A DNA stretch of 55,430 nucleotides, taken from positions 1-55,430 of the forward strand of contig JABFRT010000021.1 of assembly GCA_013141015.1 (NCBI GenBank). The letters run 5' to 3'. How positions within the stretch are numbered: position 1 is the stretch's first letter; each line of letters opens with the position of its first letter. Position numbers and translations under genes: made by a program. Of the stretch, positions 3,691 through 55,430 are shown piece by piece. Source of the DNA: Hyphomicrobium sp. Its GTDB lineage: Bacteria; Pseudomonadota; Alphaproteobacteria; Rhizobiales; Hyphomicrobiaceae. The notes beneath the pieces were generated by a model, which had not been told where the DNA came from, did no database searches, and saw only the letters and a program-made list of their open reading frames with translations.

Positions 3691-3740
3691 CGTGAAACTC
3701 CTCTTCGGCCAAAATCATCGGCTGATGGCTGCCGAATGTG

Positions 3741-10232: not shown

Positions 10233-10361
10233 GGACCATTTTGTATGGAGCGCCCGACGGCAATCGTGGGGCTGGTCCATGCAGGTGGCACTGTCTCGCG
10301 ACCGGCGGAGGCGACCCGATGGTCGCGGGTCCCGCGTGTAGCAATCTTTGAGGGAAGCGTC

Positions 10362-11291
10362 ATGAAAGCTCTGAAACTCCTGGCAACGGCCGTTGCCGCG
10401 GCCGGTCTGTTCGCCGGAACCGCCGTTGCGCAGCTGGCCGACGGCAGCGCAGCGAAACCCTTCCGGGTCATGCTGGTGCCGGCCGATGGCGGCACCGAGG
10501 ACGGCACCAAGGCCGACTTCAAGCCGGTCTTCGATGCCGTCACCAAGTCGACGGGGCTGCACTTCGACATCAAGGTTGGCCAGACCTACGGCGCCGTGAT
10601 CGAGGCCCACTGCTCGGGCGTGATCGAGATCGCCTGGTACGGTGCGGCCTCCTACCTGCCGGCCAAGGAGAAGGGCTGCGCCGAACTGCTCGCGCTCGAC
10701 GTGAACCACGGCAGCTCGACCTATTTCTCCGGCATCTTCGTCAAGGCTGGCTCGCCCGTTAAAGCGCTGGCCGACCTCAAGGGCAAGGCCATGGCCTTCG
10801 GCGATCCGAACTCGACGTCGAGCTTCGTCTATCCGGTTGCCATGCTGCTCGCCGCCGGACTCGATCCCGCGAAGGACCTGACGTCCGTGCGCATGACCGG
10901 TAGCCATGCCAACAGCCTGAAGGCGCTCTCCGAGGGCCTGGTGGATTCAGCTGCCGCCTCGTTCGACTCGCTTGAGAAGGCGGTCAACCAGGGCTCGATC
11001 AAGGCGGGCGAACTCGTCGTGCTCGCGAAGTCCGACCCGATCCCCAATCCGCCGATCGCCATGGCGACCAAGCTGCCCGCCGATGTGAAGCAGAAGCTGC
11101 GTGACGCATTCAACAACATTCACAAGACCGAAGGCGTCAAGCCCGAGATGATCCGTGGCTACGGCGGCAAGAAGGTTGATCGCTACGACGCGTCGATCAA
11201 GGAAGAAGTGATGGCGCCGGCCCTCGTCACGCTGTCGAAGGTCTCCAAGGACCTGCGCCAGGCGATGATTGCCAAGGCCGGCCAGAAATGA
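10362..11291 (+). CDS. phnD: Phosphonate ABC transporter, periplasmic binding protein
   Basis: A 309-residue solute-binding protein. Residues 1-24 form a Sec signal peptide (basic start, hydrophobic core, AVAQ cleavage region). The mature part has PFRVMLVPADGG, the phosphonate-binding family opening, and later AFGDPNSTSSFVYP, the D-x-x-S-x-S-x-x-x-P loop that binds the phosphonate group in PhnD. The ATG at 10362 follows AGGGAAG; a longer frame upstream is not needed. The stop overlaps the phnC start (ATGA). It captures phosphonates in the periplasm for PhnCE. Confidence 0.92.
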   Translation: MKALKLLATAVAAAGLFAGTAVAQLADGSAAKPFRVMLVPADGGTEDGTKADFKPVFDAVTKSTGLHFDIKVGQTYGAVIEAHCSGVIEIAWYGAASYLPAKEKGCAELLALDVNHGSSTYFSGIFVKAGSPVKALADLKGKAMAFGDPNSTSSFVYPVAMLLAAGLDPAKDLTSVRMTGSHANSLKALSEGLVDSAAASFDSLEKAVNQGSIKAGELVVLAKSDPIPNPPIAMATKLPADVKQKLRDAFNNIHKTEGVKPEMIRGYGGKKVDRYDASIKEEVMAPALVTLSKVSKDLRQAMIAKAGQK

Positions 11292-35709: not shown

Positions 35710-36920
35710 CACAGCCCTCCCAAATAGCGTGCTGGCTGTGATAGGATTTCATCGGCGCTCAAGGCATGAACGACAGGCGTGGCAGAAGCCGTGCCATTGC
35801 AAACGAGATCATAACCCTGGCTCGTTGCGACCAGCGTAAGCGCCACGGGACGCGCGCATGCGCAGCCCTTGGCGCAGCCCGAGACGTGCAGAGTCTTGCC
35901 AAGCGGAACGTGAGACGCAAGTTCGCGCGCGAGCAGGCGCGTTTCAGCCCGCGCCTGCGGGCACCACGGCGCGCCAGGGCAAGATTCGACGCGCAATAGT
36001 GGATCGTTAGCTTGTGAAATGATGCCCAGCCCGGTGGGCATCAGGTCAGAACCGGGTAAGAAAACCATCCGCCACGGTGTAACCCGCAATTCCGCCGCCG
36101 CGCTCGCCAGCTTCTCCAACGAATCTGCAGTCATCGAACCGAATGCCATGGCCACCAGCGCACCGCCCGCCACAAGCCCCGTTGTGGCGGGCGCGGCTTG
36201 CGCCGCAGGCAACTCCGTCCCGGCCAAATGAGCAGGGAGCACAGCTCCCTTGCGGATGTGAGCCGCCATGCGGCCGCGTCCCTCGCTGATGCCGCCCGAC
36301 GCGATAAACCACCGCGCCAATGCCAGCGCTACAACGGCAGCCTGCTCAAACGCAATGGGGAGTCCAAATTGCGCCCCGTCCGCCCTGACGATCAGCTTTC
36401 CGCGGTCGCTGCGTTCGATGCGGATATCCGCTGGCGTTGCGTTCAACACTCGCCTCGGCCCGCAGTCGACGGCAAATCCGAATTTCCCCGGCAGCGCAAG
36501 ATCGCTCGCAGCAAGACCGGCTTCGAGCGCCGGCGCCAGAGCGGGTTCAACGCCGGATTTGCTCCAGAACGGCGTGACCACGATATTGCGCCGCGCTTCG
36601 GTCGCGGGGTCGTCATCCAACAGGCCGAGGGCATCCAAGGCCTTCAAAAGTGCCCCGTGGGTCTCGGCGCGGACGCCGCGCAGCTGCAGGTTAGCCCGCG
36701 ATGACAGGTCGATAACCCCGTTACCGTACTCTCGCGCTGCTTGCGCAATGCCGTGCGCCTGGGCCGCCGTGACCTGTCCGGCGCGCGGGCGAATGCGCAC
36801 AACCAGTCCGTCGCCCGACATCATGGGAGCGAGCGCGCCCGGGCACCGGCCCTTGACTTCGAAATTCCGTATCAAGCGTCCCCCAGTGATGCGGCGATGG
36901 AATTGCTCCGCGTCTTCCAC
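35709..36920 (-). CDS. cobG: Precorrin-3B synthase
   Basis: A monooxygenase of up to 403 residues with the sulfite/nitrite reductase fold that hydroxylates precorrin-3A using oxygen. GRCPGALAPMMSGDGLVVRIRP is the start of the family, DLSSRANLQLRGVR the core, and CPGAPWCPQ with SGCAKGCACA hold the four cluster cysteines. The frame begins at an ATG inside cobN (49-base overlap). A TTG at 36875 giving a four-base overlap fits the shorter family start better. It marks the aerobic pathway. Confidence 0.92.
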   Translation of the reverse strand: MEDAEQFHRRITGGRLIRNFEVKGRCPGALAPMMSGDGLVVRIRPRAGQVTAAQAHGIAQAAREYGNGVIDLSSRANLQLRGVRAETHGALLKALDALGLLDDDPATEARRNIVVTPFWSKSGVEPALAPALEAGLAASDLALPGKFGFAVDCGPRRVLNATPADIRIERSDRGKLIVRADGAQFGLPIAFEQAAVVALALARWFIASGGISEGRGRMAAHIRKGAVLPAHLAGTELPAAQAAPATTGLVAGGALVAMAFGSMTADSLEKLASAAAELRVTPWRMVFLPGSDLMPTGLGIISQANDPLLRVESCPGAPWCPQARAETRLLARELASHVPLGKTLHVSGCAKGCACARPVALTLVATSQGYDLVCNGTASATPVVHALSADEILSQPARYLGGL

Positions 36921-39900
36921 AGCGCCGAAGCGTTCAGCCGTTCAAAACACGACTGCATGGCGGCGAGCGCGGCGGGATTTTCCCGTTGCAGGAACGCGCA
37001 AACGTCGTCGCAGGCCAGCGTAGCGTCATAGTACAGATCGAACAGGTGCGCGGGTACGGACTTCGAGAGCAGCGCGAACGCCGCCATGTGCTCGAGCGTA
37101 GCGGCAATCTCGGCCCCACCGCGAAACCCATGTTCCATCATACCGGCGATCCACTTGGGATTTGCCGCCCGGGCGCGAACGACGCGCGCGATCTCTTCAG
37201 GCAACGTCCGCGCTTGCGGCGATCCGGGCCGCGTTGCGTCGAGGTGATAAAGCGCGGGAGGTGCTGCTCCGGTCAGGACCGACGCGGCGGCAAACCCGCC
37301 CTCGTGTACGGCATAGTCTGCGGCCAGCAGAAGATCGGTTTCGGGTAAGTCCTGCATGTGAACGAAGGCGTCGGCGCTCCTCACCCGCTGCTCGATGGCC
37401 GAGCGGTCGAGGCAGCTAGCCCCATCGGCCCCGATCGCCCAAGACGACGTTGAAAGCCATGCCTCGCCCGCCGCCGCCACGGCCTCCGGCGTGAACACAT
37501 CGAGCAACCCTGTCATCCCCGCCCCGTACTGCCCTGGACGTGGCCCAAATACGCGAGCGATCCGATGCCGGTAAGGATTTTCCGCGCCTTCTAGGTGCCG
37601 CTTTGCGAGCAGCGACGCCCCGGCCTCAAACAGCTGCGCCAGGCTTGGAAACACGTCGCGAAACAGCCCGGATACGCGCAGCGTCACGTCGATGCGCGGC
37701 CGTTGGAGCAATTCGAGCGGCACGACCTCGACGCCGCAGACACGCTCGCTCCCTTCATCCCACTGCGGCGCGAGCCCCGCCAAATGCAGCGCCATGGCGA
37801 AATCTTCGCCCCCGGTGCGCATACTTGCCGATCCCCACAGATCGATAACCAGTCCCTTGGGCCAGTCGCCATGATCTTGCAGGTGCCGCCGCAACAGCTC
37901 CTCGGCCAGTTTAATACCCTGCGCATGCGCCGCGCGCGATGGGACCGCGCGCGGATCGACGGCATAAAGGTTGCGTCCAGTCGGCAGCACGTCGGGCCGG
38001 CCGCGATAGGGCGAACCGGCAGGGCCAGGTGCCACACGGTTTCCCCGCAGTGCGGCCAACACCGCGTCGCGCTCATGGTGGCCACACGCGCCCCTGCCGA
38101 AGACGTGCAGACCTTCGCCGTATTGGCTTTCCTTCAGATCGCAGACGAAGCGGTCGATTCGCGGAATCGCCTCGGCAGGCGTTGCTGAAGCCGGCAGCCC
38201 AAGGTCTTCTTCCACGCCCGCAACCTGCGCCTCAGCGCGGATGGCAGCTATCAACCGCTGCCGGCGTGCTGGATCGAGCCCGTCCGCGGTCGAATACTCG
38301 TCGAGCAACCGCTCCAGGCGAACCAGTCCGTCTGGCAAAGCAGCTTTCGCCAGCGGCGGCGGCAGATGGCCGATCGTCATCGCGCCAATCCGCCGCTTGG
38401 CCTGCGCCGCCTCGCCAGGATCGTTGACGATAAATGGATAGATCACCGGCACGCGGCCAATCAGAGCCTCGGGCCAGCATTCGTCCGACAGCGCAACCGA
38501 TTTGCCCGGCAGCCATTCAAGGGTGCCGTGCGCGCCCATGTGGATCAGAGCCTCTAGGTTAATCGATTGGAGCCACAGGTAAAACGCGACATACCCATGA
38601 CGCGGCGTGCGCGACAGGTCATGATATTCGTCGTCGCGTGTCCCGATATCGCCCCGGTCGGGCTGAACGGCGATCAGACATTGATCGCGGCGGACGGCTG
38701 CAAAGTGGAACGCGCCATCACGGCACGACGGGTCGTTCTCGGGCTCGCCCCAGGCTGCTGCCAATGCCGTTCGAAGCACCAAGGGCAGCGCCGCCAGCCG
38801 CTCCTGGTAGTCAACCAACGGCCATGACAGACTCTCATGGCCCAACGCTAATCCCAGGCCGCTGTTCGCATTGACCGAATATCCCGCGTCTGCAAGATCG
38901 GCCAGCATCGCCTCGGCCGACGCCAGCGCATCGAGTCCCACCGCATGGGCGATCTGGTGCGGCCGCCCCGGATAACTCGAAAGCACCAGAGCGAGACGCT
39001 TGTCTGCCGCCGGCACGCGAGCTAGCCGGTGCCATGCCGCCATGCGCCGCGCAGCAGCGGCAACCCGGTCCTCATCTGGCCGATGTGCAAAGTGCGAAAA
39101 CTGCAAATCGGGATCGCGCCGGGCTGGCGACTTGAAGCTGACGACCCCGGCAAATAAACGGCCATCGACTTCGGGTAGCACGACGTGCATTGCAAGATCG
39201 GCTGGCGACAAACCGCGCGTGGATTGCGCCCAGTCAAGCCGCCGCGCCGTGGACAGCGCCACCTGAAACACCGGGCATTCGGCTCCATCTAACGGGGTCT
39301 TCCCGTGTTCATCCTTGGCCGAAAACGCTGTCGCGTTGACGATGATCGCAGGTGGAAGCGCTTCCAAGTGCGCGCCGAGCCAGTTGCTGACGCCGGGTGC
39401 CTTCAACGATGGCGTGTACGCGCCATAAGCGTCAAACCCCTCCCGGTCTAAAGCCGCAATCAGCGCATCGACCGGACCGGTATCGGAAGCCGTCAGATAC
39501 GAGCGATAGAATACCACCAGCGCCCTGGGCCGAGCGCCGGTCGCAGGCGGCCCGGATTGTGGGCCCTGTTGGGGCTGGTAAAACCCGAAGTCAGCAATGG
39601 CCGTTTCACCGGCAAATTCACCCGGATCAAGTCCGGCGGCGGTCGCCAATAGCGCCAGCGCAGCATGGGCTGCGACCGCACCGCCGGTATCGCAAAGCGA
39701 CTTCAGGCGGCGTAGCTCAGGGACGGGCAAATTCGACAAGCCATCAAGCCGATCGTCGTTGCGTCCATCCGCTGGCAAAACGGCGAGCGCGATCGAGCGG
39801 GATTGAGCCAATTCACTCAACGCCGCCAGGCCATAAGCCCAGTAGGACTCTCCACCGATCACGCGGACCAAAATCCCGCGTGCGCCAGTCAGCGTCCGCT

Positions 39901-40117
39901 CGATGTAGGTATCAACCGACAACGGATGACGCAGCGCGATCAGGTTCGCCAGCCTCAGGCTCGGAAGGCTCTCGCGTCCCCGTCGCCACCCGGCGGCGAA
40001 CGCGCCAAGATCGCTATCGGAAAAAGACAGCACAACGAGTTCCGCAGGGTCTTGCCCGAGATCCATCGGGATCCCGGCTTCCTCCAGACCACGGCTCTCG
40101 CGGTAGACGACATGCAT
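36872..40117 (-). CDS. cobN: Aerobic cobaltochelatase subunit CobN
   Basis: A 1081-residue large subunit that inserts cobalt into hydrogenobyrinate a,c-diamide with CobS and CobT. The blocks ANSGLGLALGHESLSWPLVDY-like (NANSGLGLALGHESL), EALIHMGAHGTLEWLPGKSVAL, and VFGRGACGHHERDAV are CobN/BchH signatures. YGAGMTGLLDVF and AFVHMQDLPETDLLLAADYAVHEGGFAA occur near the C-terminus. It is slightly shorter than many CobN proteins. The ATG at 40117 shares a base with the cobW stop. CobS and CobT chelatase genes are not in this window. Confidence 0.93.
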   Translation of the reverse strand: MHVVYRESRGLEEAGIPMDLGQDPAELVVLSFSDSDLGAFAAGWRRGRESLPSLRLANLIALRHPLSVDTYIERTLTGARGILVRVIGGESYWAYGLAALSELAQSRSIALAVLPADGRNDDRLDGLSNLPVPELRRLKSLCDTGGAVAAHAALALLATAAGLDPGEFAGETAIADFGFYQPQQGPQSGPPATGARPRALVVFYRSYLTASDTGPVDALIAALDREGFDAYGAYTPSLKAPGVSNWLGAHLEALPPAIIVNATAFSAKDEHGKTPLDGAECPVFQVALSTARRLDWAQSTRGLSPADLAMHVVLPEVDGRLFAGVVSFKSPARRDPDLQFSHFAHRPDEDRVAAAARRMAAWHRLARVPAADKRLALVLSSYPGRPHQIAHAVGLDALASAEAMLADLADAGYSVNANSGLGLALGHESLSWPLVDYQERLAALPLVLRTALAAAWGEPENDPSCRDGAFHFAAVRRDQCLIAVQPDRGDIGTRDDEYHDLSRTPRHGYVAFYLWLQSINLEALIHMGAHGTLEWLPGKSVALSDECWPEALIGRVPVIYPFIVNDPGEAAQAKRRIGAMTIGHLPPPLAKAALPDGLVRLERLLDEYSTADGLDPARRQRLIAAIRAEAQVAGVEEDLGLPASATPAEAIPRIDRFVCDLKESQYGEGLHVFGRGACGHHERDAVLAALRGNRVAPGPAGSPYRGRPDVLPTGRNLYAVDPRAVPSRAAHAQGIKLAEELLRRHLQDHGDWPKGLVIDLWGSASMRTGGEDFAMALHLAGLAPQWDEGSERVCGVEVVPLELLQRPRIDVTLRVSGLFRDVFPSLAQLFEAGASLLAKRHLEGAENPYRHRIARVFGPRPGQYGAGMTGLLDVFTPEAVAAAGEAWLSTSSWAIGADGASCLDRSAIEQRVRSADAFVHMQDLPETDLLLAADYAVHEGGFAAASVLTGAAPPALYHLDATRPGSPQARTLPEEIARVVRARAANPKWIAGMMEHGFRGGAEIAATLEHMAAFALLSKSVPAHLFDLYYDATLACDDVCAFLQRENPAALAAMQSCFERLNASALWKTRSNSIAASLGDA

Positions 40118-41151
40118 CAGACGCCAAGTCCCGCGCGGATCGCCGCTTCATCGATATCGCCGCGTTCGCCGATCACCACCAACTGAGAGCGGCGCGGCGC
40201 ATCGCCCCACGCCCGGTCGTACTGGAAGCGGACCCGTTCGCCGGCCGCCTGGATCAGCAACCGCATGGGCTTTGCGGCGACTGCGATGAACCCCTTGGCG
40301 CGCAGCACATTTTGTTCGCGGGCTAACCGCTGGATCGCTTCTGCAAGCGCTTCGGGATCGGCAATGTCGCCAAACTCGATCACCACCGAGGCAAAATCGT
40401 CGTGCTCGTGGCCGTCCTCGCCGTCATGGTGGGAGGGACGCGCGGCCAGATCATCCTCCGCCGCAGCCTGGATGCCGAGGATGACCATCGGATCGATCAC
40501 GCCGTCGGTGACGGCAAGCATCGGCACGGCGCGCGGCGCTTCGGCACGTATGGCGGCACGGGCGGTGGCCAGTCCGGCCTCGCCCGCCAGATCGGCCTTC
40601 GTCAGCAGAACAATGTCCGCGCACGCGATCTGATCCTCAAACACCTCGCCCAGCGGCGTATCATGATCGAGGTTTTGATCGCTCGCCCGTTGTGCCGCCA
40701 CAGCGGACGGATCGGGCGCAAACCGCCCGGCGGCCACAGCCTCCGCGTCGGCCAGCGCAATCACGCCGTCGACCGTGATGCGCGAGCGGATCGCGGGCCA
40801 GTCGAAGGCCTTGAGCAACGGCTTGGGCAGCGCGAGACCTGACGTTTCGATCAGAATGTGGTCGGGACGGACCGGTCGCGCCAGCAGCGCTTCCATGGTC
40901 GGAATGAAGTCATCGGCAACGGTACAGCAGATGCAGCCGTTGGCGAGTTCGACAATGTTTTCTTCAGGACAATTGGCATCGGCACACGATTTCAAGATAT
41001 CGCCATCGACGCCGGCTGTGCCGAACTCGTTGACGAGCACGGCGAGCCGCTTCCCGTTCGGATTGGCCATGAGATGCCGGATGAGCGTGGTTTTCCCAGA
41101 GCCGAGAAAGCCGGTGATGATCGTGACTGGAATTTTGGCGAGATTGGTCAC
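40117..41151 (-). CDS. cobW: CobW-type GTPase (COG0523)
   Basis: A 344-residue P-loop GTPase thought to deliver cobalt to CobN. The P-loop is ITGFLGSGKTTLIRH, the metal-binding motif is NGCICCTV, and a His/Asp-rich SHHDGEDGHEHDD segment near residues 238-251 may hold metal. TKADLA is the NKxD-like base-specificity motif. The start is a GTG at 41151 that overlaps the DUF1636 stop. Its place between DUF1636 and cobN is typical. Confidence 0.92.
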   Translation of the reverse strand: MTNLAKIPVTIITGFLGSGKTTLIRHLMANPNGKRLAVLVNEFGTAGVDGDILKSCADANCPEENIVELANGCICCTVADDFIPTMEALLARPVRPDHILIETSGLALPKPLLKAFDWPAIRSRITVDGVIALADAEAVAAGRFAPDPSAVAAQRASDQNLDHDTPLGEVFEDQIACADIVLLTKADLAGEAGLATARAAIRAEAPRAVPMLAVTDGVIDPMVILGIQAAAEDDLAARPSHHDGEDGHEHDDFASVVIEFGDIADPEALAEAIQRLAREQNVLRAKGFIAVAAKPMRLLIQAAGERVRFQYDRAWGDAPRRSQLVVIGERGDIDEAAIRAGLGV

Positions 41152-41537
41152 TCGGCGGCTTCCTTGCTGTCGATTTTGGCGGTGGCAGTCATAGGCGGAA
41201 GCCGGGCAAGGGATTGCTTGCGAAAGATTTCGGGACGCTCACGCCAGGGAACCAGACCATCTGGCGTCGCCGCATATGAAGCCGCACCAGTGAGGATGAG
41301 CGGGGCATCCGCTTCCGATAACCGCCCGTATACGTAGGACCAACGGCCCTTCGACGACAGCGAAACTGCGCACCCTTGGTTGCAGGCCGAGAGACACTCG
41401 ACGGGGACGATCTCGACGCCTGCGGGCGCGCCCAGCCCGAGCATCGCAGCATGAAGTCGCGCGCCAGGGGTCGCCTCGCCATCCGCCACCGGACGATTGG
41501 CGCGGCAGGTAACGCACACATGAAGCTTTACGGACAA
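41148..41537 (-). CDS. DUF1636 (CobW-associated metal-binding) protein
   Basis: A 129-residue protein with a thioredoxin-like ferredoxin-type arrangement: VCVTCR near the start and VECLSACNQGCAVSLS in the middle provide four to five cysteines. YVYGRL and W-R-E-R-P-E are family features. The family is almost always next to cobW in aerobic cobalamin clusters, and its biochemical role is not established. It is the first gene after the riboswitch and is coupled to cobW by a GTGA overlap. Confidence 0.88.
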   Translation of the reverse strand: MSVKLHVCVTCRANRPVADGEATPGARLHAAMLGLGAPAGVEIVPVECLSACNQGCAVSLSSKGRWSYVYGRLSEADAPLILTGAASYAATPDGLVPWRERPEIFRKQSLARLPPMTATAKIDSKEAAE

Positions 41538-41629
41538 AGATCACCCTCGGAATCAAAAATCGGAGGGGCGAAGGCGAACGAGCGCCAAAAGACGCTCGCG
41601 TGCCGTCGCGGAAAACACCCCGTCCGCCG

Positions 41630-41840
41630 GTCTCAACATCTGCGCTGGCAGGTCTCCCGGCTTGCAGAGTGGGGTTGCCCCTTCGATCTCCGCCTTCCCG
41701 GCGTCGAAGCCAGTGGCAATGGAGATCTCTCCGTTCACGGTCGCGGGGGCGGCTGCGTTTCGGGTTGAAACCATCGGTCTCAAGCCCTATCGCATTCCCT
41801 CTTAGCCTGTCGTAGGACAGGAACCGGCGCGGTTGCACCT
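41630..41840 (-). ncRNA. Cobalamin riboswitch upstream of DUF1636-cobW-cobN
   Basis: On the minus strand the B12 box AGCCGGGAGACCTGCC lies at 41647-41662. The GCCGCCCCCGCGACCGTGAA block, GCCACTGGC and CGGGAAGGCGG are in the right order upstream, and AAGAGGGAATGCGATAGGGC is the 5' core. Ends are estimated. It should repress the long cobalamin operon at high adenosylcobalamin. cobO begins only about 45 bases beyond its 5' end on the other strand. Confidence 0.92.
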
Positions 41841-41883
41841 TTTGCCCTCGTCACAGACTTGTCAAGCGAAAGGACCACCCGGC

Positions 41884-42537
41884 ATGAGTTCGGATGAGGA
41901 CACCGAAACAGCGGCTATCGGCCTGCCTGTTGGCGCCGACGATGCCCGCCATGCCGTTAAGATGGCCAAGAAGAAAGCCGCGCGCGACAAGATGATGGCC
42001 GGCAAGAGCGGCGAAAAAGGCCTCATCATCGTCCACACCGGCGCGGGCAAAGGCAAGTCGTCGTCCGCGTTCGGGATGATCGTACGTTGCATCGCTCACG
42101 GTTTCCCATGTGCTGTCGTGCAATTCATCAAAGGGGCGTGGGACACCGGCGAGCGCCGCCTGCTGACCGGCCACTTCGGCGACCTTTGCCAATTCCATTC
42201 GATGGGCGAAGGCTTCACCTGGGAGACCCAGGATCGCGCCCGAGACGTTGCGGCCGCCGAGGCCGGCTGGGCAAAGGCCAAGGAACTGATCGGCGATCCG
42301 GCCATCCGCATGGTCGTCCTTGATGAAATCAATGTCGCGCTGCGCTACGATTATCTCGATATCGTCGAGGTTGTTCGCTTCCTGCAGGACGAGAAGCCGA
42401 CATTGACTCACGTCGTCCTGACCGGCCGGAACGCCAAGCAGGAACTGATCGACATCGCTGATCTCGTGACCGAGATGACGCTCGTCAAGCATCCCTTCCG
42501 CTCCGGCATCAAGGGCCAACCCGGCGTGGAGTTCTAG
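41884..42537 (+). CDS. cobO: Cob(I)yrinic acid a,c-diamide adenosyltransferase
   Basis: A 217-residue CobA/BtuR-type adenosyltransferase. The modified P-loop is [15 protein letters not shown], followed by [17 protein letters not shown] and [15 protein letters not shown]. It adds the upper adenosyl ligand. The ATG at 41884 is preferred to an upstream frame that would run into the riboswitch. It is transcribed away from the riboswitch operon and leads cobQ five bases further. Confidence 0.94.
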
Positions 42538-42542
42538 TCGGT

Positions 42543-43991
42543 ATGGCGCGGGCGTTGATGATCCAGGGTACCGGTTCCAACGTGGGCAAATCGCTGCTCG
42601 TCGCCGGCTTGGCGCGCGCAGCACTGCGCCGCGGAATTGCCGTGGCCCCGTTCAAGCCACAGAATATGTCCAACAATGCCGCCGTCACCGTCGACGGTGG
42701 CGAAATCGGTCGTGCCCAGGCGCTTCAAGCCCGCGCAGCAGGCATCGAGCCGCACACCGATATGAACCCGGTGTTGCTGAAACCTGAAACTGACTCCGGT
42801 TCGCAAGTCATCGTTCAAGGGCGGCGCGTCGCAACCGTCAAGGCACGCGACTATTCGGCCATGAAATCGACGCTGATGACGCCCGTGCTGGAAAGCTTCG
42901 AACGGCTGCGGGGGCGCTACGATTTGGTGCTGGTTGAAGGGGCTGGGAGCCCGGCTGAAGTCAATCTGCGGGCCCGCGATATCGCCAACATGGGGTTTGC
43001 CCGTGCCGCCGATGTTCCCGTGGTGCTCACCGGCGATATTGACCGTGGCGGCGTCATCGCACAGCTCGTTGGCACCAAAGCCGTGTTGGATCCTGACGAC
43101 GCCGCGATGATCGCCGGTTTCATCGTCAACAAGTTTCGCGGCGACCCAACGCTGTTTGACGATGGATACCACTTGATCGCCTCGCTGACCGGCTGGCGTG
43201 GATTTGGCGTCGTTCCCCACTACAATCGTGCTCGCGAACTCCCTGCCGAAGACGCGCTAGACCTCTCGGGCCTGCGTCGGGACGGGCGCACAAAAATCGC
43301 GTTCCTGGCGCTGTCGCGGATCGCGAACTTCGACGACCTCGATCCGCTGAAGCTTGAACCGAATGTCGACCTTGTGATGGTCCATCCGGGCGACGCCATT
43401 CCCGGTGATGCGGCCCTTGTGATCATTCCCGGCACGAAATCGACTCGTGGCGATCTCGACTTCCTGCGCCAGCAAGGCTGGGACATCGATCTTGCCGCCC
43501 ACTGCCGCCGAGGCGGTCACGTCCTCGGAATCTGCGGGGGCTATCAGATGCTGGGAACCTGGATCATGGATCCCCTCGGCGTCGAGGGCACCGCCGGCGA
43601 AACGCGGGGGCTGGGGTTGCTGGATGTGACGACCCAGATGACGACGGACAAGCGACTGTCCCGGGTGAGCGCGGTTCATGCCGCGACCGGCCTCGCGGTC
43701 GAGGGTTACGAGATCCACATCGGCCGTACCGAGGGCGCTTGCTGCGGACGCCCGTTCGCCACCATCGGTCAAACGCCCGAAGGTGCCCGTTCGGCGAACG
43801 GAAGGGTCATGGGCAGCTATCTCCACGGGTTATTCACGTCCGATGCGTTCCGCAGCGCTTTCCTTGCGAATCTCAATATTACGGTCTCAGGGCAGAGCTA
43901 CGACAGCAAAGTCGACGACGCCCTTGATGCCCTCGCAGACCACTGCGAACAGCATTTGGATGTCCCCGGACTGCTCGAAATTGCTCGCTAA
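42543..43991 (+). CDS. cobQ: Cobyric acid synthase
   Basis: A 482-residue glutamine-dependent amidotransferase. The N-terminal synthetase has [29 protein letters not shown] and [12 protein letters not shown]. The C-terminal GATase domain carries the Cys nucleophile in [11 protein letters not shown] and the His in GSYLHGLF. It amidates the side chains b, d, e and g of adenosylcobyrinate a,c-diamide. Its stop overlaps the convergent cobC stop by four bases. Confidence 0.94.
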
Positions 43992-44956
43992 CGGACCTGC
44001 AAGGCTGAGGAGAGCCGCTCCCATTCGGCCTCGCTGCCCGGCATCCCCAGTCTCAGCCACCCTTCCGACCAGGGGAACGCCCGCGTCCAGATGTGCGCCC
44101 GCGCCAACTGGTCTTGCGCTGCGCGCGCGTCGCCGGTTTCATATAGCCGGAACAGGTTCGTCCCGCCCGCAAGCGTCCAACCGGCATCCAAGGCCAAGGC
44201 GTCCAGGCGGCGCGCGTCGTCGTTGAGACGCAACGTGGTCTCGACCGCCCAATCCCGATCCAGCAACGCTGTACGCCCGATTTGGATCGCGGCACCGCTG
44301 ACCGGCCAGGGTCCAGATTGCACACGCAAAGCAGCAACGTCGTCCTCGCAGCCAAACACAAACCCGAGCCGCACGCCCGCCAAGCCGTAAAACTTGCCAA
44401 ACGAGCGCAGCACCAAAAGTCCAGGTTGCCCGGCAAATGCCGCAACCGACAGCTCGGGGTAGGGATCGGCAAAGCTTTCGTCGACGACCAGTCGTCCGAC
44501 TTTTGGGACGAGCGAAAGCAGAACCTCTGGGTCGTGCGGCTGCCCGTCCGGATTGTTCGGATTGACCACCACGGCAAGATCGGCTCCCGCCAGATCCGCC
44601 AGCGTGGCCACGTCCTCGACGGCCCATGCGCAGGCCCGTAGCGCTGCCGCGTGCTCATTGTACGTTGGGGACAGCACCCGCGCTCGCCCCGGCACCGATA
44701 GGCGCGGGATCATCTGAATGGCGGCCTGAGCGCCCGCAGTGGCGAGGATCGGTGCGCGCGAGTGATAGGCGGTTCGCGCTGCTTCGCAGAGTGTTTCAAG
44801 TACCGCCCTTGTCGGAAGGGCACGCCAATGATCTGCTTCAAGCGGCGGCACCGGATACGGGCAGCGGTTGATCCCCGTCGAAAGGTCGATCCAATCCTGC
44901 GTCCGCCCGCCGAAGCGTTGGATCGCCCAGTCGATGTTTCCCCCGTGATCGCGCAT
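43988..44956 (-). CDS. cobC: Threonine-phosphate decarboxylase-like PLP enzyme
   Basis: A PLP fold-type I enzyme of about 322 residues giving the aminopropanol arm of cobinamide. [17 protein letters not shown] is the family start, [14 protein letters not shown] and NPNNPDGQ are substrate-site motifs, and [18 protein letters not shown] carries the PLP lysine. I take the ATG at 44956; a TTG at 44971 would overlap cobD by four bases. It converges on cobQ. Confidence 0.9.
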
Positions 44957-44967
44957 GTCTCGATGTC

Positions 44968-45918
44968 TCAAATAAGCGCCACAGCGGCGAACAGGGCTCC
45001 CATAGCGGCAAGCGCCGTCATTGCGAACAGGTATATGCGCAAACCGTTTCGAATATCGGCTGCTGTCGCGTCACGCCCAGATGGGTTCAACCACGGCTCA
45101 TGGGCGATGCGGTCATGATAGACGCGAGGACCCGAAAGGCGCACGCCAAGGCCACCGGCCATGGCTGCTTCGGGCCAGCCAGCATTCGGGGAGCGATGCT
45201 GCCCGGCATCCTTTAGGGTGCATGCGAGCGCACGAACGGGGTGCCCGGACGTCAGCGCAAACAGCAACGCAGTCAGGCGCGCAGGTACGAGGTTTGCTAT
45301 ATCGTCTACCCGCGCCGAGGCCCAACCGAACGCCTCATGCCGGGGTGTCCGGTGGCCTATCATGGAGTCGAGCGTGTTAATCGCTTTATAGCCCGCAATG
45401 CCCGGCAGCCCGAAAATTGCGCCCCAAAAAATGGGGGCAACGATCCCGTCGGAAGCGTTCTCGGCAAGGCTCTCGATCGCCGCGCGTGAAATTCCCGCTT
45501 CGTCGAGCCGCTCCGTGTCCCGCCCCACGATCTTGGAAACCGCATACCGCGCCGCGGGTAAATCATTACGTTCAAGCGGCTCAACAACCGCGAGCACATG
45601 ATCATACAATGACCGCACCGCCACGAGTGGCCAGGCGAGCAACCCAACCAAAACGAGTCCGATCCACCCGGTTGGAAGCGCCGATTGGACGAGCAGCGCC
45701 GGCACCACAGCAAAAGCAACCACACCAAGACAGGTAGCGATGCCTTTGAGACGGCGCATATGCGAAGGCTCAGCCTCGCAATTCCAGCGGCCGTCGGCTA
45801 TCCGGATCAGCCACCCGATCCACGTGACGGGATGGCCGATCCGGCGATACACTAAGGCGGGCCATCCCACGACAGCATCCGCCGCCAAGGCCACCAACAT
45901 CGCCCCTAGAAAGCTCAT
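44968..45918 (-). CDS. cobD: Adenosylcobinamide-phosphate synthase (CobD/CbiB)
   Basis: A 316-residue membrane protein with several hydrophobic segments. RIGHPVTWIGWLI, RDTERLDEAGISRAAIESLAEN-like residues (RLDEAGISRAAIESLAENA), DGIVAPIFWGAIFGLPG and KAINTLDSMIGHRTPRHEAFGWASAR are CbiB motifs. The ATG at 45918 fits the family start; a TTG at 45981 is also in frame. It attaches aminopropanol phosphate to cobyric acid. It is followed by cobC. Confidence 0.92.
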   Translation of the reverse strand: MSFLGAMLVALAADAVVGWPALVYRRIGHPVTWIGWLIRIADGRWNCEAEPSHMRRLKGIATCLGVVAFAVVPALLVQSALPTGWIGLVLVGLLAWPLVAVRSLYDHVLAVVEPLERNDLPAARYAVSKIVGRDTERLDEAGISRAAIESLAENASDGIVAPIFWGAIFGLPGIAGYKAINTLDSMIGHRTPRHEAFGWASARVDDIANLVPARLTALLFALTSGHPVRALACTLKDAGQHRSPNAGWPEAAMAGGLGVRLSGPRVYHDRIAHEPWLNPSGRDATAADIRNGLRIYLFAMTALAAMGALFAAVALI

Positions 45919-46052
45919 TCGACTTTGCTTGCCCCCAACTTGTCCATACGGGGTTGTTGCCGCTGGTGGCGCGATGGTCAATATTCCTTCGCATTCAAAC
46001 AGCGGCCGGGACGGGCATCGACTTGCAACCGGGCGAGAACGGACCCAGCCAA

Positions 46053-46556
46053 ATGACCATTATCCTCATCACCGGCGGCGCTCGCTCCGGCAAAAGCCGT
46101 CGAGCCGAGTTTCGAACGCTGACTTTTCGAGGGGCGCCGGTCTACATCGCCACAGCGCAAGCCTTCGATGGGGAAATGGAGGAGCGCATTCGTGTCCATC
46201 GCGATCGCCGGGGCCCTGAGTGGCAATTACGCGAAGCGCCGCTCGATTTGGTTGCCGCACTATCGGAAACGAACGGACTTGGTCCAAGACTGGTCGATTG
46301 CCTGACGCTGTGGTTATCGAACCTTATGCACGCCGGTCGCGATTGGAGCGAGGAGGCCGATAAGCTCGCGGATGAGCTTTCCCGGCAGCGGGCACCGGTC
46401 ATACTCGTCACGAATGAGGTGGGCCTCGGCATCGTACCCGACAATGCTTTGGCGCGCGCATTTCGCGACGCTTCGGGACTGCTCAATCAGCGCATCGCCA
46501 ACGCTGCAGATGAAGTCGAATTCGTCGTGTCCGGCCTGCCGTTGAGGGTCAAGTAG
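46053..46556 (+). CDS. cobU: Adenosylcobinamide kinase / adenosylcobinamide-phosphate guanylyltransferase
   Basis: A 167-residue bifunctional enzyme (CobP in Pseudomonas nomenclature) that phosphorylates and guanylylates adenosylcobinamide. The P-loop is ITGGARSGKSRRAEF, followed by PVYIATAQAFDGEMEERI with RVHRDRRGPEW (the GMP-accepting His region) and VTNEVGLGIVPDNALAR. The start is the ATG at 46053. It is divergent from cobD across 134 bases. cobS, which would act next, is not in the window. Confidence 0.92.
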   Translation: MTIILITGGARSGKSRRAEFRTLTFRGAPVYIATAQAFDGEMEERIRVHRDRRGPEWQLREAPLDLVAALSETNGLGPRLVDCLTLWLSNLMHAGRDWSEEADKLADELSRQRAPVILVTNEVGLGIVPDNALARAFRDASGLLNQRIANAADEVEFVVSGLPLRVK

Positions 46557-47244: not shown

Positions 47245-48561
47245 TCAACCTGCGTTCGCCGCATCCTTGAGTGATGCAAGACGCGCGCTAAACCCGGCGA
47301 CGATGCTGTCAACCAAATCAGCTGCGCGGTCATCCGGCATCGCGGCTCGCGCCTCAGCAATGGCGTTCGGAGCAGCGTCGATCAACTCTTCAAAAATACC
47401 ATTCATCGAGCCATCTGGCAGACCTGCGGCGTCAGCATCCTGCAGGAAGTGCCGAGGCGAAATGCGATCGACGACGTAGTGCCGGTTTTCGCCGACCGAC
47501 ATGGCAAGCTTCAATCGGTTGCGCCTGATCTGCTGGGCGTCATGGGCAGGCTGTGCCGACATGATGTCGTAGAGCGGGGCTAAACGAAACCGACCGCCCG
47601 GTGCCAGCTGGATGCTAAAATTCTTGGCGTGGCCGTCTGTCGCCGCGAGCAGCCAAACCAGCACCTGTGCTTTGAAGAACATTTTCCGGTCTGCTTCGGG
47701 CTGATCACTGCCTTTGAGCAGCTCTGCAATGTCGGCGACGCTTGGTCCGCCATCTGTCTGGTATTTGCGGCTCGACGGCACTGAGAGCGCCTGACAGCAG
47801 TCTTCCTGAGGAATCCGCAAAAGCCGCTTGTCCCGCGTCCACAGCCGATCGAAGCGCTCGACCACCAACACGCGCTGATCGTCAAAATCGTTGATGGCCG
47901 TTTTCGCAGCAGGCATTCCAAGCGCGTTGGTCAAACTCAAGCAAAAATGCTCGTTCTCGACACTGCGGCTCATGTCGATGCCGTTCGGCAGTACGCCCAG
48001 CTGCGGCTTTAAGATATGCGTTGTAGGGGTGGTGCCGTGCGGAACCTGCCAGTGCTTCTTGAGATAGAGGAGACCTGTTTTTTCCTGAGCGCCTGCAATC
48101 GATATGCGGAAATCCTCGTCGTCGCCAAGCCCCAAGGGGCTGCGAGCGAGGTTGGCGATGATCGCGGCGATTTCTGCGTCACTGACTTTTCGTCCTTCGA
48201 TGGCCGCTTCAAGGACTGGTTGGCCGGCCGGCAGGAATTGCAGAGCGCCGACACAGTCCCTGCCGATGGCGGCGAGGTGACTATGCGCGTCGTTTCCGGC
48301 AGCACCCATCTTCTCGGCGACGCGGCGGCGGATGTCGGCATTGTCGGGCAGTAGGTTGTCAAAGACGGCGAACACGGGATCGCCGACGAAGCGGTCTTCG
48401 CGCAGAGGCAACGACAGCGAGACTGGAATGGCATTATCCCAGTCGAGCCATGTCTGATCGTATTTGAAGTCGACCGCACCTGTGGCTTCACGCCGGAATT
48501 GTCCAACGAGCCGACCATTGAGGTAGACATCAAGGGGCTGATGAGCAGGACGCCGCGCCAT
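47245..48561 (-). CDS. hipA: HipA-type serine/threonine kinase toxin
   Basis: A 438-residue kinase like E. coli HipA (440 residues). It has the N-terminal couple_hipA region (LDVYLNGRLVGQF, VFAVFDNLLPDN). The kinase has the SIAGAQEKT loop at 154-162 with the autophosphorylatable Ser, catalytic Asp309 in TDGHAKN and metal-binding Asp332 in LYDIMS. All key residues are present, so it should be active; E. coli HipA phosphorylates glutamyl-tRNA synthetase. It overlaps hipB by one base. Confidence 0.92.
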   Translation of the reverse strand: MARRPAHQPLDVYLNGRLVGQFRREATGAVDFKYDQTWLDWDNAIPVSLSLPLREDRFVGDPVFAVFDNLLPDNADIRRRVAEKMGAAGNDAHSHLAAIGRDCVGALQFLPAGQPVLEAAIEGRKVSDAEIAAIIANLARSPLGLGDDEDFRISIAGAQEKTGLLYLKKHWQVPHGTTPTTHILKPQLGVLPNGIDMSRSVENEHFCLSLTNALGMPAAKTAINDFDDQRVLVVERFDRLWTRDKRLLRIPQEDCCQALSVPSSRKYQTDGGPSVADIAELLKGSDQPEADRKMFFKAQVLVWLLAATDGHAKNFSIQLAPGGRFRLAPLYDIMSAQPAHDAQQIRRNRLKLAMSVGENRHYVVDRISPRHFLQDADAAGLPDGSMNGIFEELIDAAPNAIAEARAAMPDDRAADLVDSIVAGFSARLASLKDAANAG

Positions 48562-48812
48562 CAGAACAGATCCTCAATCTCGCTTGAGGTTCCTGACGAG
48601 CGCGGACGGATCACCAGCTCGAGATCCAGGGCAACCAGTGCGTCCATCAGAATGCGTAGCTGCGTCGCCGGTTCACCCGCTTCGAGCTTCGAGACCGTGG
48701 CCTGACGGACATTCAACTTCTCACCCAAGTCGCTTTGGGTGAGGGCGCGTGCCGCCTTATGCGCCGGAGGGCAGCGCCTGCTTTGCTTTGATGTGCGTAC
48801 GATCAGGTCCAT
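48561..48812 (-). CDS. hipB: HipB-type antitoxin / HTH repressor
   Basis: An 83-residue XRE-family repressor. The helix-turn-helix is LTQSDLGEKLNVRQATVSKLEAGEP in two pieces, and the tail LDLELVIRPR is the HipB dimer strand. Residues 11-20 (SRRCPPAHKA) do not resemble the family; reading the same bases in the +1 frame gives AGAALRRIRR, the normal helix 1. Two compensating indels at about 48780 and 48750 would explain this. It binds the operator array upstream and neutralises HipA. Confidence 0.88.
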   Translation of the reverse strand: MDLIVRTSKQSRRCPPAHKAARALTQSDLGEKLNVRQATVSKLEAGEPATQLRILMDALVALDLELVIRPRSSGTSSEIEDLF

Positions 48813-50927: not shown

Positions 50928-51356
50928 ATGAAGCGAATTTTCAGGAACTGGGTTGCCTGTCTATGCTTGTTGATGGCGCCACAGAACGTATCGGCTGGCG
51001 ATCTCGTCTTTACGCCAACCAATCCGTCTTTCGGCGGTTCGCCCCTTAATTCCAGCCACTTGATGGGGCTTGCGAACACGCAAAACGAATTCAAGCCTGA
51101 ATCAGCTTCGCGCAAACCGCAAACACCGTCAGAGCGGTTTGCCCAGATGCTTCAATCGCGGCTCTATGCGGGGCTTGCCGATAAGGTCAGCACCGCGATT
51201 TTCGGTGAGGACGCCGAGGACAGCGGCACTTTCAAATTTGGTGATCAAGAAATTAGATTCAGTAACGACGGAACACAGGTTGATCTCGTTATCCGGAATT
51301 TGACGACCGGAGAGACCACTGAAATTTCGGTGCCGGTTGCCGTTTCAGGGCAATAG
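50928..51356 (+). CDS. csgF: Curli assembly protein CsgF
   Basis: A 142-residue secreted accessory protein. A Sec signal peptide runs to about residue 23 (NVSAGD). The mature start LVFTPTNPSFGGSPLNSSHLM with a following QNEF matches the CsgF opening that plugs the CsgG pore (N-P-x-F-G-G-x-P). The C-terminal half has FGDQEIRFSNDGTQVDLVI and TTGETTEI, as in CsgF. The start ATG follows GGGAG. It should couple curlin secretion to surface nucleation. Confidence 0.88.
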   Translation: MKRIFRNWVACLCLLMAPQNVSAGDLVFTPTNPSFGGSPLNSSHLMGLANTQNEFKPESASRKPQTPSERFAQMLQSRLYAGLADKVSTAIFGEDAEDSGTFKFGDQEIRFSNDGTQVDLVIRNLTTGETTEISVPVAVSGQ

Positions 51357-51408: not shown

Positions 51409-52767
51409 GTGGGAATTTTGAAAAAAGTTATTTTGAGCATCGGCTTATTTGTGTGCGCTGCGTCCCTCGGTGGGTGCGCTGGCCATATGGCCGAATCGGC
51501 GGCGGCCCCTTCAGAGGGGCTGCTGCCGCCCGTTCTCAATCCCATCACAAAAATCAACAAGTCGCTGCGCGAGTTGCCGCCGCCGGTGCAAAAGGTTGCG
51601 ATCGCGGTTTACGGCTACACCGATCAAACTGGACAATTCAAACCCGTCGACAACGTGCAAACGCTTTCGCGCGCGGTAACGCAGGGCGCGACGTCGGTGC
51701 TGATCAAAGCGCTGCAGGATGCCGGCGAAGGCGCGTGGTTCACGGTTGTGGAACGCGAACGTCTCGATAACCTGATGAAGGAACGCAAGATTATCGCAGA
51801 TATGCGTGAGCGCTATTTGGGCGAGCGCGGCGTCAATCCCAAGGCCTTGCCGCCACTGCTTTTTGCCGGCGTTCTCTTGGAAGGCGGCATCGTCGGCTAC
51901 GATTCCAACACGCGCACGGGCGGCGCGGGGGCGCGCTATCTCGGCATCGGTGGCGATGTCAAATTCCGCGAGGATACCGTCACGGTCTATCTGCGCGCAA
52001 TTTCTACAAAGACCGGCGAGGTGCTGGTGTCGACGGTCGCGCACAAGACCGTCATTTCGGTCGGGATTTCGGGTGGTGCCTTCAAGTTCGTGGCGCTCGA
52101 CAGGATTCTCGAAGCCGAGGTGGGCATCACCAACAATGAGCCGGAGCAGATCGCTGTGCAGCAGGCCATTGAGAAAGCCACTCACGCCATGATCGTTGAA
52201 GGCGCGGCACGTAATCTCTGGGCCTTCTCTGACAAGGCATTTCAGTCGCACGCGATCGAGAAGTTCTATCAGGAACAGCAGACGCTCGGACCAGTTGCCG
52301 CGCGGCAAGGCACACCGGCCGGGGGCAAAGGCGCGACTGCTGTGGCGGCGGCAAGCAGCGGCGCGCAAAATCCAGCGCAGGCGAGCAGCACGCCGTGGCA
52401 GGCTTCGGCATCGACGGCAGCGGCGCCGACAACCAGCGGCGTTGCGCCTCCAGCATCTGCTCCAGAATCTCCGCCCGCTGCTGCTCCTGCCAACAATTCC
52501 GGTGCGGTGAAAGCCGCCGAGGTTCCGGCGGCAAGGCCGGTGGCCAAACCTGTGGCGAAGCGCACGCCCATTGCCGCGTCGAAGCCGCCTGTGAACCAGC
52601 CCGTCGCGATGCTCACCGAAGAGGATCGCCCAGGTATGTCTCCAGGCGCTGCTTCTAATGGTCCTGGGCGCGCGCGCCTTTTGGCGCCGTCGGCTGGTGC
52701 CGGCATCGAGCCCGACTTCCAGCCGAGCCCTGAAAAAATGGGCGCACCGCCTCCGGAGGCGCCATGA
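51409..52767 (+). CDS. csgG: Curli secretion channel CsgG with long C-terminal extension
   Basis: A 452-residue outer-membrane lipoprotein; E. coli CsgG has 277 residues. The start is a GTG. The lipobox LGGC puts the lipidated Cys at 23. The CsgG domain runs to about 280: KVAIAVYGYTDQTGQFKP, TVVERERLDNLMKERKII, GVLLEGGIVGYDSNTRTGG and KTGEVLVSTVAHKTVIS. After about residue 285 follows a 165-residue tail rich in Ala, Pro and Ser. The core looks functional as the nonameric curlin exporter. It lies 52 bases after csgF. Confidence 0.88.
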   Translation: MGILKKVILSIGLFVCAASLGGCAGHMAESAAAPSEGLLPPVLNPITKINKSLRELPPPVQKVAIAVYGYTDQTGQFKPVDNVQTLSRAVTQGATSVLIKALQDAGEGAWFTVVERERLDNLMKERKIIADMRERYLGERGVNPKALPPLLFAGVLLEGGIVGYDSNTRTGGAGARYLGIGGDVKFREDTVTVYLRAISTKTGEVLVSTVAHKTVISVGISGGAFKFVALDRILEAEVGITNNEPEQIAVQQAIEKATHAMIVEGAARNLWAFSDKAFQSHAIEKFYQEQQTLGPVAARQGTPAGGKGATAVAAASSGAQNPAQASSTPWQASASTAAAPTTSGVAPPASAPESPPAAAPANNSGAVKAAEVPAARPVAKPVAKRTPIAASKPPVNQPVAMLTEEDRPGMSPGAASNGPGRARLLAPSAGAGIEPDFQPSPEKMGAPPPEAP

Positions 52768-53056: not shown

Positions 53057-53827
53057 ATGAAAAAGATGCTTTTTGCGACCGTTTCGGCGCTCACTCTGAT
53101 GACCGGTGCGGCGCTGGCTGCAGGCCCAACCCCCGGCCAGAACGACTCGTTCGTTGACCAGATCGGCGATGGCAACAATGCCACGGTCGGCCAGGGCGGC
53201 GGCAACAACTACTCGGACGTCAATCAGGGCAGCAGCAACGACGCAAACGTTAGCCAGACCGGCGCCGCGGGCACAGCTAACCTATCGACGATCGATCAAG
53301 GTTCGGGCAACGGCCCTCTGCCGGGTTCGGGGGCGACCGTTGTCCAGGGCGGTGCCGCCACGGGCAACACATCGAACATTGAGCAGACCGGGACTGGCGG
53401 CAACTTGGCCGATGTCAACCAGGGTGGTGGCGCTGGCACCATGAACGATTCGAGTGTGACGCAGTCCGGCGCTGGCAACAACGATGCGACGATTGATCAG
53501 GCCGGTACCGGCTCATCGAACACCTCTGATGTCAACCAGGCTGGCTTCGGCAACGCTGCCACGATCAACCAGGGCGGCGACGACAACGTAAACGGCTCTA
53601 TCGTTGGTCAGACGGTGACTGGAATACTGCGTCCGTTGAACAGGGTGGAACTGACAACACCAACACTTCAGGCATCACTCAGACCGGCAACTCGAACACT
53701 GCCAATGTTGATCAAGGATTGGCGGGATCCGGCATCACCAACAATTCGACGGTCACTCAAACCGGCAACACCAACACTGCCACCGTCACGCAGAACTAAA
53801 TCGCAGATTGTTGAGGCGGGCGCATGA
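53057..53827 (+). CDS. Curlin-repeat amyloid protein 1, frameshifted at about 53622
   Basis: A secreted protein with curlin repeats (csgA/csgB type). A Sec signal peptide ends at ALAAGP. Repeats of the form (I/V)-x-Q-x-G-x-x-N-x-A run from residue 30 on, e.g. DGNNATVGQGGGNN and SNDANVSQTG. After QTVTG at about residue 189 the frame changes to a low-quality tail. The next frame continues repeats (NTASVEQGGTDNTNT and more) to a stop at 53797-53799. One missing base after 53622 explains this. The full product would have about 247 residues. Confidence 0.82.
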   Translation: MKKMLFATVSALTLMTGAALAAGPTPGQNDSFVDQIGDGNNATVGQGGGNNYSDVNQGSSNDANVSQTGAAGTANLSTIDQGSGNGPLPGSGATVVQGGAATGNTSNIEQTGTGGNLADVNQGGGAGTMNDSSVTQSGAGNNDATIDQAGTGSSNTSDVNQAGFGNAATINQGGDDNVNGSIVGQTVTGILRPLNRVELTTPTLQASLRPATRTLPMLIKDWRDPASPTIRRSLKPATPTLPPSRRTKSQIVEAGA

Positions 53828-53902: not shown

Positions 53903-54700
53903 ATGAAACGAATACTTTTGGGCTTGGGGCTTGTTTTAGCCATGTCGATGCCCGCAACAGCTCAGACGAACGATCAAACTGCGACGCAAACCGGGAATGG
54001 GAACGAGGCGACAGTTACGCAGCTGCAGCCAACCAACTCGAACGATAATGATTCCTTGATCGAGCAGGGAACATCTTTGGCGCCGAGCGATAACAACAAA
54101 GCCACCGTGTACCAGGGTGGGGCGAGTTGGGATCTGACTCCTCAAGACGCCAAGAACGATTCCAAAATTTGGCAGAAGCAGGATGGCAACGAGGCGATCG
54201 TCAAACAGACAGGCACCCTCGGTGTTACCAACACGTCGGAGATCGACACCGACGGAAACGATAGCTATGCCAGTGTCGATCAGCAGGGCCGGGGCACGGG
54301 GCCGAACTTTTCGCGCATCGACCAAGTGGGCGATGACAATCGCGCGACGGTCACGCAGCTTGATGTCTACAACGACAACAATTCCGATATCGATCAGAAT
54401 GGCAGCAATAATACGGCGAACGTCTATCAGGGCGAAGCTGCAAACTTCGCTGGCGGTCCTGGTGCTAACAAGTACAACCATTCCGAAGTTACTCAGACGG
54501 GGGATTGGAGCAGAGCCGAGATCGACCAGGAGGGAAACGAAAACGCCTCGGTCAACACTTCGCTTGTGACACAGAACGGAACCGGCGTTGGGGTCGGTCA
54601 GGAGAATCTCGTCTCTGTCCACCAGTACGGTTCCACGACCAATTTCTCATCTGCTAACCAAAACGGTAACTCCAACACCGCTACGGTCAACCAACACTGA
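53903..54700 (+). CDS. Curlin-repeat amyloid protein 2
   Basis: A 265-residue secreted protein. A signal peptide ends at PATAQT. Curlin-type repeats with regularly spaced Gln, Gly and Asn fill the mature part: NGNEATVTQLQ, DGNEAIVKQTG, NDSYASVDQQG, DNRATVTQLD and SNTATVNQ at the end. The frame is intact, unlike that of its neighbour. It is probably exported by CsgG as fibre subunit or nucleator. Which of the three proteins plays CsgA and which CsgB cannot be told. Confidence 0.85.
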   Translation: MKRILLGLGLVLAMSMPATAQTNDQTATQTGNGNEATVTQLQPTNSNDNDSLIEQGTSLAPSDNNKATVYQGGASWDLTPQDAKNDSKIWQKQDGNEAIVKQTGTLGVTNTSEIDTDGNDSYASVDQQGRGTGPNFSRIDQVGDDNRATVTQLDVYNDNNSDIDQNGSNNTANVYQGEAANFAGGPGANKYNHSEVTQTGDWSRAEIDQEGNENASVNTSLVTQNGTGVGVGQENLVSVHQYGSTTNFSSANQNGNSNTATVNQH

Positions 54701-54745: not shown

Positions 54746-54817
54746 GGACATGCTTCGCATATTTTAAATCAGCCGGCTTCCACGCCGCGTTATGTGAGTG
54801 TTGTTTGGAGACTGCGC

Positions 54818-55430
54818 ATGTTTCGCTATTTTCTCGCCGCTGTATTCTTAGTGGCCACGGTATGGCTCGCCAACTCGCCGGAAGCCTTCGCCAGCGACGA
54901 TGACCGCGGCGGCTACACGTCCGGTCACGGTTCAGGCACAGGTTCAGGCTCGGGCCACAGCGGCGGAGACGACGACAATGATCATGACGACAACGAACAC
55001 GGCACCGGTCACGACGATGATGATGACCATGATGATGATCATCACGGGGGCGGCGGAGCATTCATCCTCCGCAATGACAGCCAGATTACGCAAATCGGCT
55101 CGGGCAACACCGCAACTGTCAACCAAACAGCGGTCGCCATCAGCTCGGGCAGTCATCACGGCGGCGACGATGATCACGGTGGTTCTGGCGGCGTCATTGG
55201 CAACCGCGCTCGCATCGAACAGTACGGCTCCAGCAACGACGCTGTGATCTCGCAATACGGCACCGACAACGACGCCAAGATCAAACAAGACGGCAACGCC
55301 AATACCGCCGACATCGGCCAAACCGGCTCCGGACATGAAGCCGAAATCGAGCAGGACGGCAACGGCCACCTTGCGCGCATTACCCAATTTGGGGAAGGAC
55401 GCGAATTCCACATCGATCAGTCGGGCGGCC
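54818..55430 (+). CDS. Curlin-repeat protein 3 with Asp/His-rich domain (3' end outside window)
   Basis: The frame starts at the ATG at 54818 (GGAG upstream) and is open to the window end, at least 204 residues. Residues 1-25 are a signal peptide (SPEAFA). Residues 26-80 are almost only Gly, Ser, Asp and His, with runs such as HDDDDDHDDDHH at 65-76. From about 88 curlin repeats follow: SQITQIGSGNTATVNQ, ARIEQYGSSNDAVISQ, AKIKQDGNANTADIGQ, AEIEQDGNGHLARITQ. A second short His/Asp insert (HHGGDDDHGG) splits the repeats. The acidic/His part resembles metal-binding low-complexity regions. Confidence 0.85.
   Translation, partial: MFRYFLAAVFLVATVWLANSPEAFASDDDRGGYTSGHGSGTGSGSGHSGGDDDNDHDDNEHGTGHDDDDDHDDDHHGGGGAFILRNDSQITQIGSGNTATVNQTAVAISSGSHHGGDDDHGGSGGVIGNRARIEQYGSSNDAVISQYGTDNDAKIKQDGNANTADIGQTGSGHEAEIEQDGNGHLARITQFGEGREFHIDQSGG

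Follow-up and report, generated by a model that had tools for sequence, protein, structure and literature searches.

The contig JABFRT010000021.1 of Hyphomicrobium sp. (assembly GCA_013141015.1; 69 contigs, 3.94 Mb) was analysed over its complete length of 55,430 bases, referred to here as the window. At its end lies the third curlin-type gene of a curli cluster (54818..55430, plus strand; 204 codons to the contig's last base). Its product is a curlin by its repeats and gene context, and it carries a Gly/Asp/His/Ser-rich tract ahead of the first repeat and a second Gly/Asp/His insert behind it. In our best reading, the decoration is new and so far unique, and the subunit type is already known. 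Judged from the sequence, the two tracts might be flexible, exposed arms that combine cation binding with charge control on a minor curlin subunit; this is the explanation that we favour, tentatively, over the others considered.

A GGAG that is the likely ribosome-binding site (54807..54810, plus strand, direct sequence reading) stands 7 bases before the ATG. The plus frame at 54818 was taken as coding because the curlin repeats lie in it; the opposite frame is likewise open but has no support. The protein starts with a putative Sec signal peptide, recognised by eye (residues 1-25, 54818..54892; MFR, a hydrophobic run and an AFA/S cleavage site), followed by the N-terminal tract (residues 26-81, 54893..55060, from a composition count), in which residues 27-81 comprise 17 Asp, 8 His and 16 Gly in 55. 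Curlin repeat 1 (residues 86-103, 55073..55126) was placed by Pfam, by alignment with a relative and by predicted strands at residues 85-93 and 98-104. The second insert (residues 104-128, 55127..55201, from alignment and composition) contains 3 Asp, 3 His and 8 Gly in 25 residues and occupies arc 2 of repeat 1, the arcs being named as in PMC10192328 (this and the other papers cited by PMC number are drawn on in part). Repeats 2-5, the last of them incomplete, fill 55202..55429 (Pfam, alignment and AlphaFold2). Against PF07012 (Curlin_rpt), the protein matched in 4 stretches with E=2.8e-35 and 120.4 bits (curated cut-off 20.7).

Upstream on the same strand, csgF (50928..51356; PF10614, 6.5e-35) and csgG, encoding the outer-membrane export pore (51409..52767; PF03783, 8.5e-58), place the gene in a shared locus with export genes, as expected of a curlin. 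The layout given in an earlier sequence-only reading, with a signal peptide, about 55 Gly/Asp/His/Ser residues, curlin repeats and a further insert, was borne out, the insert being 25 residues long and following repeat 1. Its proposal of a secreted fibre subunit has good support in the likely signal peptide, the repeats and the upstream csgF and csgG. The C-terminus is missing because the contig end at 55430 cuts the gene; judged from the relative described below, the protein would be short of complete by some 20 to 25 residues. The last 131 bases matched nowhere else in the assembly, no other contig of the genome had a Curlin_rpt match, and a promoter and terminator scan gave no signal beyond that of shuffled sequences.

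The Asp/His content of the tract stood out in a survey of 81 stretches (the window, L021, L022, L040, L041, 60 loci, 4 plasmid loci and 12 further loci), in which an open reading frame (ORF) counted as curlin-type if each of two repeat patterns occurred in it twice or more. Eighty stretches yielded 160 such ORFs, L170 being the one without any. The maximum of Asp plus His per 40 residues was 22 in the third curlin and 11 in the next genuine ORF, followed by four at 10. A value of 14 in L157 was rejected as an artefact of an over-extended start, not a leader, and some other surveyed ORFs likewise start too early. Against a background Asp plus His frequency of 6.9% in the 137 other curlin-type ORFs of a first survey, 22 in 40 corresponds to a binomial P of ~1e-15, a value uncorrected for scanning and computed over residues that are not independent. 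Among 60 greedily picked non-overlapping ORFs within the window, the runner-up was the CobW ORF with 12 Asp plus His per 40.

Among 146 curlin ORFs, 8 Gly-rich low-complexity stretches were identified: 2 in the third curlin, 3 in the CsgA-type leaders of L121, L124 and L153, 2 in G1140 (L098) and 1 in a Sphingobium plasmid (L163). Since curlin leaders are variable and Gly-rich leaders occur elsewhere, the N-terminal tract is best described as an extreme form of the variable leader. The earlier statement that no curlin of such a layout has been described holds for the Asp-rich form in the survey sample. Leader variation at the N-terminus and insertions in the arcs are documented, however (PMC10192328), and a CsgA-like ORF in L172 (from 5007) has a His/Gly leader, GWGHGHGHGG, ahead of its first repeat. 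In L116 (6646-7188), a short curlin combines repeats rich in Glu and His with a leader that is long and charged. The open-licence literature, judged by titles and abstract openings, yielded no report of a curlin that is naturally rich in Asp and His.

The homologue searches used E limits from 1e-3 to 1e-9, scored some candidates per genome and were sampled, and curlins may have been missed. Genome contigs searched with the window protein gave 0 confirmed relatives; with a two-row alignment they gave 3, including the contig of G017, a genome of the same genus. Viral contigs yielded no relatives. On plasmids, the relative's protein retrieved 7 records (2 covering 80%) and the window protein 53 (0 covering 80%), and 4 loci were read. 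Searched alone, the N-terminal tract matched no Pfam family over the cut-off and no PDB sequence, and in its own genome it gave a single weak match (E 0.09), at a locus without a convincing Asp/His protein.

The relative in G017 is syntenic. The gene order there is csgF, csgG, curlin, short curlin, a 139-residue ORF and a CsgH-like gene; a single long curlin precedes the short one, as against two in the window. The G017 short curlin is complete and shows 46% identity to the window protein over residues 66-203, and the two proteins agree where repeat 1 starts and in the later repeats. The Asp/His run is absent from it at both tract sites: its leader, counted from an approximate cleavage point, is 20 residues long, with a short DDLD and 5 acidic, 3 basic and 0 His residues, and a brief Ala-rich linker stands where the window protein has its second insert. 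The repeat core is thus inherited, and the tracts are the special part of the window protein.

The DNA of the tracts was examined with regard to their origin. It holds one weak 12-base repeat, GACCATGATGAT, in 2.5 copies at 55013-55042, plus an overlapping GAT run; the similarity between the two tracts is weak and was reached by 264 of 2000 codon shuffles, which neither demonstrates nor rules out that one tract was copied from the other. Such weak repeats, a similarity within the shuffle range and the variability of leaders and arcs among curlins are what neutral low-complexity expansions would leave; the position of the leader and arc 2 outside the core would allow them to be tolerated. We consider this origin quite unlikely, as the same three-residue composition appears at two separate sites and the G017 relative has neither. 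In addition, Asp and His codons are mixed (GAC 17/GAT 11 and CAC 9/CAT 5 across the entire third curlin), and a recent pure triplet run therefore cannot be the full account.

The AlphaFold2 model showed strands across the repeats and a predicted local distance difference test (pLDDT) score below 50 over residues 1-69, 74-80 and 111-122; both Asp/His arms are probably disordered beside a strand-rich core. The second insert is located in arc 2, a site of insertions according to PMC10192328. In the mechanism that we propose, the third curlin would be made with a Sec signal peptide, held unfolded in the periplasm and exported via the neighbouring CsgG, and its repeats would put it on the cell-surface fibre. 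Ahead of repeat 1, the Asp/His/Gly tract would replace the usual leader, and the Asp/His/Gly loop of the second insert would bulge out of arc 2; from these positions, both arms should lie outside the amyloid core and be flexible, strongly acidic and His-containing. They could bind divalent cations loosely, Ca/Mg via Asp and Zn/Cu/Ni where His is dense, and their charge could delay self-assembly for as long as the subunit is inside the cell, or fibres and matrix could be cross-linked through cations. We infer the export, the minor-subunit role, the exposure, the metal binding and its effect.

The composition makes metal sites or metal-controlled assembly, as the sequence-only reading had put forward, plausible. 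Metal-binding proteins are enriched in low-complexity regions with much His and Asp (PMC6821194), and the N-terminal tract shows such a composition, with 25 of its 55 residues being Asp or His. The His-rich tracts of cobalamin biosynthesis contain 53% His and 23% Asp (PMC6821194). Asp is about twice as frequent as His in the tract, unlike in these His-dominated cobalamin tracts, and polyanion effects or Ca/Mg binding would therefore account for it no less well than Zn/Cu/Ni. In E. coli, the N22 leader is bound by CsgG and lies outside the core, and its removal alters the pre-fibre ensemble (PMC7217966). Among the residues on the CsgA surface, His, Glu and Asp have been suggested as possible metal ligands (PMC9910073). 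A more far-reaching proposal, of natural metal-decorated curli in which the arms of a minor curlin would set divalent-cation sites at the fibre base or surface and metal would gate assembly or cross-link the biofilm, appears doubtful. Engineered curli with metal-binding peptides are the artificial counterpart of such a system.

The same acidity would also suit an electrostatic solubility or secretion leader without a specific metal role, an exaggerated acidic arm of the CsgB-like leader type that would keep the subunit unfolded in the periplasm and meet positively charged partners. We regard charge alone as a realistic possibility, ranked below cation binding with charge control. Asp exceeds His in the tract, and the leaders of CsgB-like ORFs are more acidic: pre-repeat segments of 20 short ORFs had medians of 26.5 residues and 3.5 acidic residues, against 6 and 1 in 118 others, the short set having been chosen by a rough C-terminal pattern (L127, L128 and L157 are doubtful) with a cleavage rule that misjudges a few, e.g. 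L111. Furthermore, extra Asp gatekeepers slow nucleation but do not affect fibre stability (PMC11414021), and a positive surface is used by CsgC/CsgH (PMC4838910). However, charge alone leaves 8 His in 55 residues and a further 3 in the second insert unexplained, when 106 of the 138 curlin-type ORFs of the first survey never exceeded 2 His per 40 residues; CsgH, moreover, was not found in the window genome.

Several points weigh against cation-binding, charge-tuning arms on a minor subunit. The second insert is only modestly rich, with 6 Asp or His in 25 residues. The low pLDDT may stem from a shallow alignment instead of disorder, and Foldseek returned no PDB match to the predicted model at E 0.001 or better. 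The tracts were seen in one genome, where no conserved His or Asp position is demonstrable, and with one relative, gain and loss of the tracts are indistinguishable. Zn and Ca gave no stiffening of the E. coli biofilm matrix; only trivalent ions did so, and both curli and modified cellulose were needed (PMC9910073). The third curlin scored 61.5 bits with NCBIfam NF007506 (CsgB equivalog; cut-off 165) and 41.3 with the CsgA model (cut-off 160), and these models are non-discriminating, as 7 of 7 curlins, major-looking ones included, scored higher with CsgB than with CsgA and none reached either cut-off. The ending that could back a CsgB-like assignment falls beyond the contig end. In the cluster itself, the first curlin gene (53057..53827, plus strand; Curlin_rpt 7.1e-10) has repeats that continue in another frame in its 3' part, to a stop (three-frame translation), which reflects either a mutation or a fault in the assembly. 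The CsgE search came back empty in all 3 genomes of the genus (the window genome, G017 and G011), with the E. coli control matched, and CsgH was not found in the window genome, the best profile score being 11.9 bits against a cut-off of 35. The first CsgH search was run without a positive control; the profile, used in a second one, exceeded its cut-off in G017 and G011.

The frame change, the failure to find CsgH and CsgE in the window genome, and the Curlin_rpt match in 3 of 22 genomes of the genus (the window genome counted) could also be read as a decaying curli cluster of which the third curlin is a relic. This appears very improbable, given that the second curlin gene (53903..54700, plus strand, 265 residues; Curlin_rpt 2.7e-21), the third one, csgF and csgG are open as far as they were sequenced and score well against their families. 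A fault in the assembly may account for the frame change, the search for CsgE was negative in G017 and G011 too, and CsgH could sit past the contig end: in G017 it follows the third gene on the downstream side, in a part of the locus that the window does not reach. Overall, we rank cation binding with charge control first, charge alone second, neutral expansion third and decay last.

Upstream of the curli cluster, the window contains cobalamin-type genes (CobN, CobW, a CobQ-type amidotransferase, CobD/CbiB and CobU; 35712-46553) and, on the minus strand, a HipA-like protein with a small helix-turn-helix partner (47248-48809). A tie between the Asp/His tract and the cobalamin genes (35.7-46.6 kilobases) was not adopted because the CobW ORF is some 14 kilobases away on the upstream side and other genes intervene.

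Should the arms bind metal, this bacterium would have its amyloid assembly coupled to metal availability through a built-in sequence and not through a chaperone, and the protein would offer a natural model for curli materials that capture metal. Even if they do not, the protein is an extreme case for the role of the variable curlin leader in CsgG export and in restraining aggregation.

Compared with known systems, the third curlin likely acts like a CsgB-type minor or nucleator subunit, as its size, its place and the ending of the G017 relative suggest; that ending consists, by eye, of degenerate, CsgB-like repeats (...IRQYGNGTGPPIAVRQY; the protein ends in ...IAVRQY). CsgB membership is not claimed, because the score lies below the cut-off, the models do not separate the two types, the C-terminus falls beyond the contig, and CsgA and CsgB homologues are distinguishable solely within Gammaproteobacteria (PMC3521004). 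Like CsgB, the minor curlin that nucleates the major one through CsgF, the protein is short and has about five repeats, the last of which is degenerate in the G017 relative; unlike in CsgB, its leader is longer and Asp/His-rich. E. coli CsgA likewise has low complexity and much Gly in its N22 leader, which occupies the same position ahead of repeat 1 and shows a His within a run of Gly (8enq alignment), but N22 is shorter and not acidic, and the CsgG-binding stretch with its V, Q and Y contacts (PMC7217966) was not recognisable by eye in residues 26-81. N22-like leaders are themselves an outlier among curlins and not the rule (PMC10192328). The arc- or strand-insertion curlins of Sediminicola and Roseovarius share an insertion in or between solenoid strands, whereas the sections of PMC10192328 drawn on here mention no Asp/His composition for them. 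The curlins of L163 (Sphingobium plasmid, 3162-4289) and L098 (G1140, 10319-11095) likewise bear a Gly-rich low-complexity decoration, but theirs is Gly/Asn-rich, with GNPCG or GDPCG and two Cys replacing Asp/His, and is internal in L163. These two-Cys stretches are another type of decoration, perhaps for a disulfide or for metal. The G017 short curlin follows csgF, csgG and a curlin as the window protein does and has the same repeat core; it differs in being encoded by a complete gene and in lacking the Asp/His run at either site.
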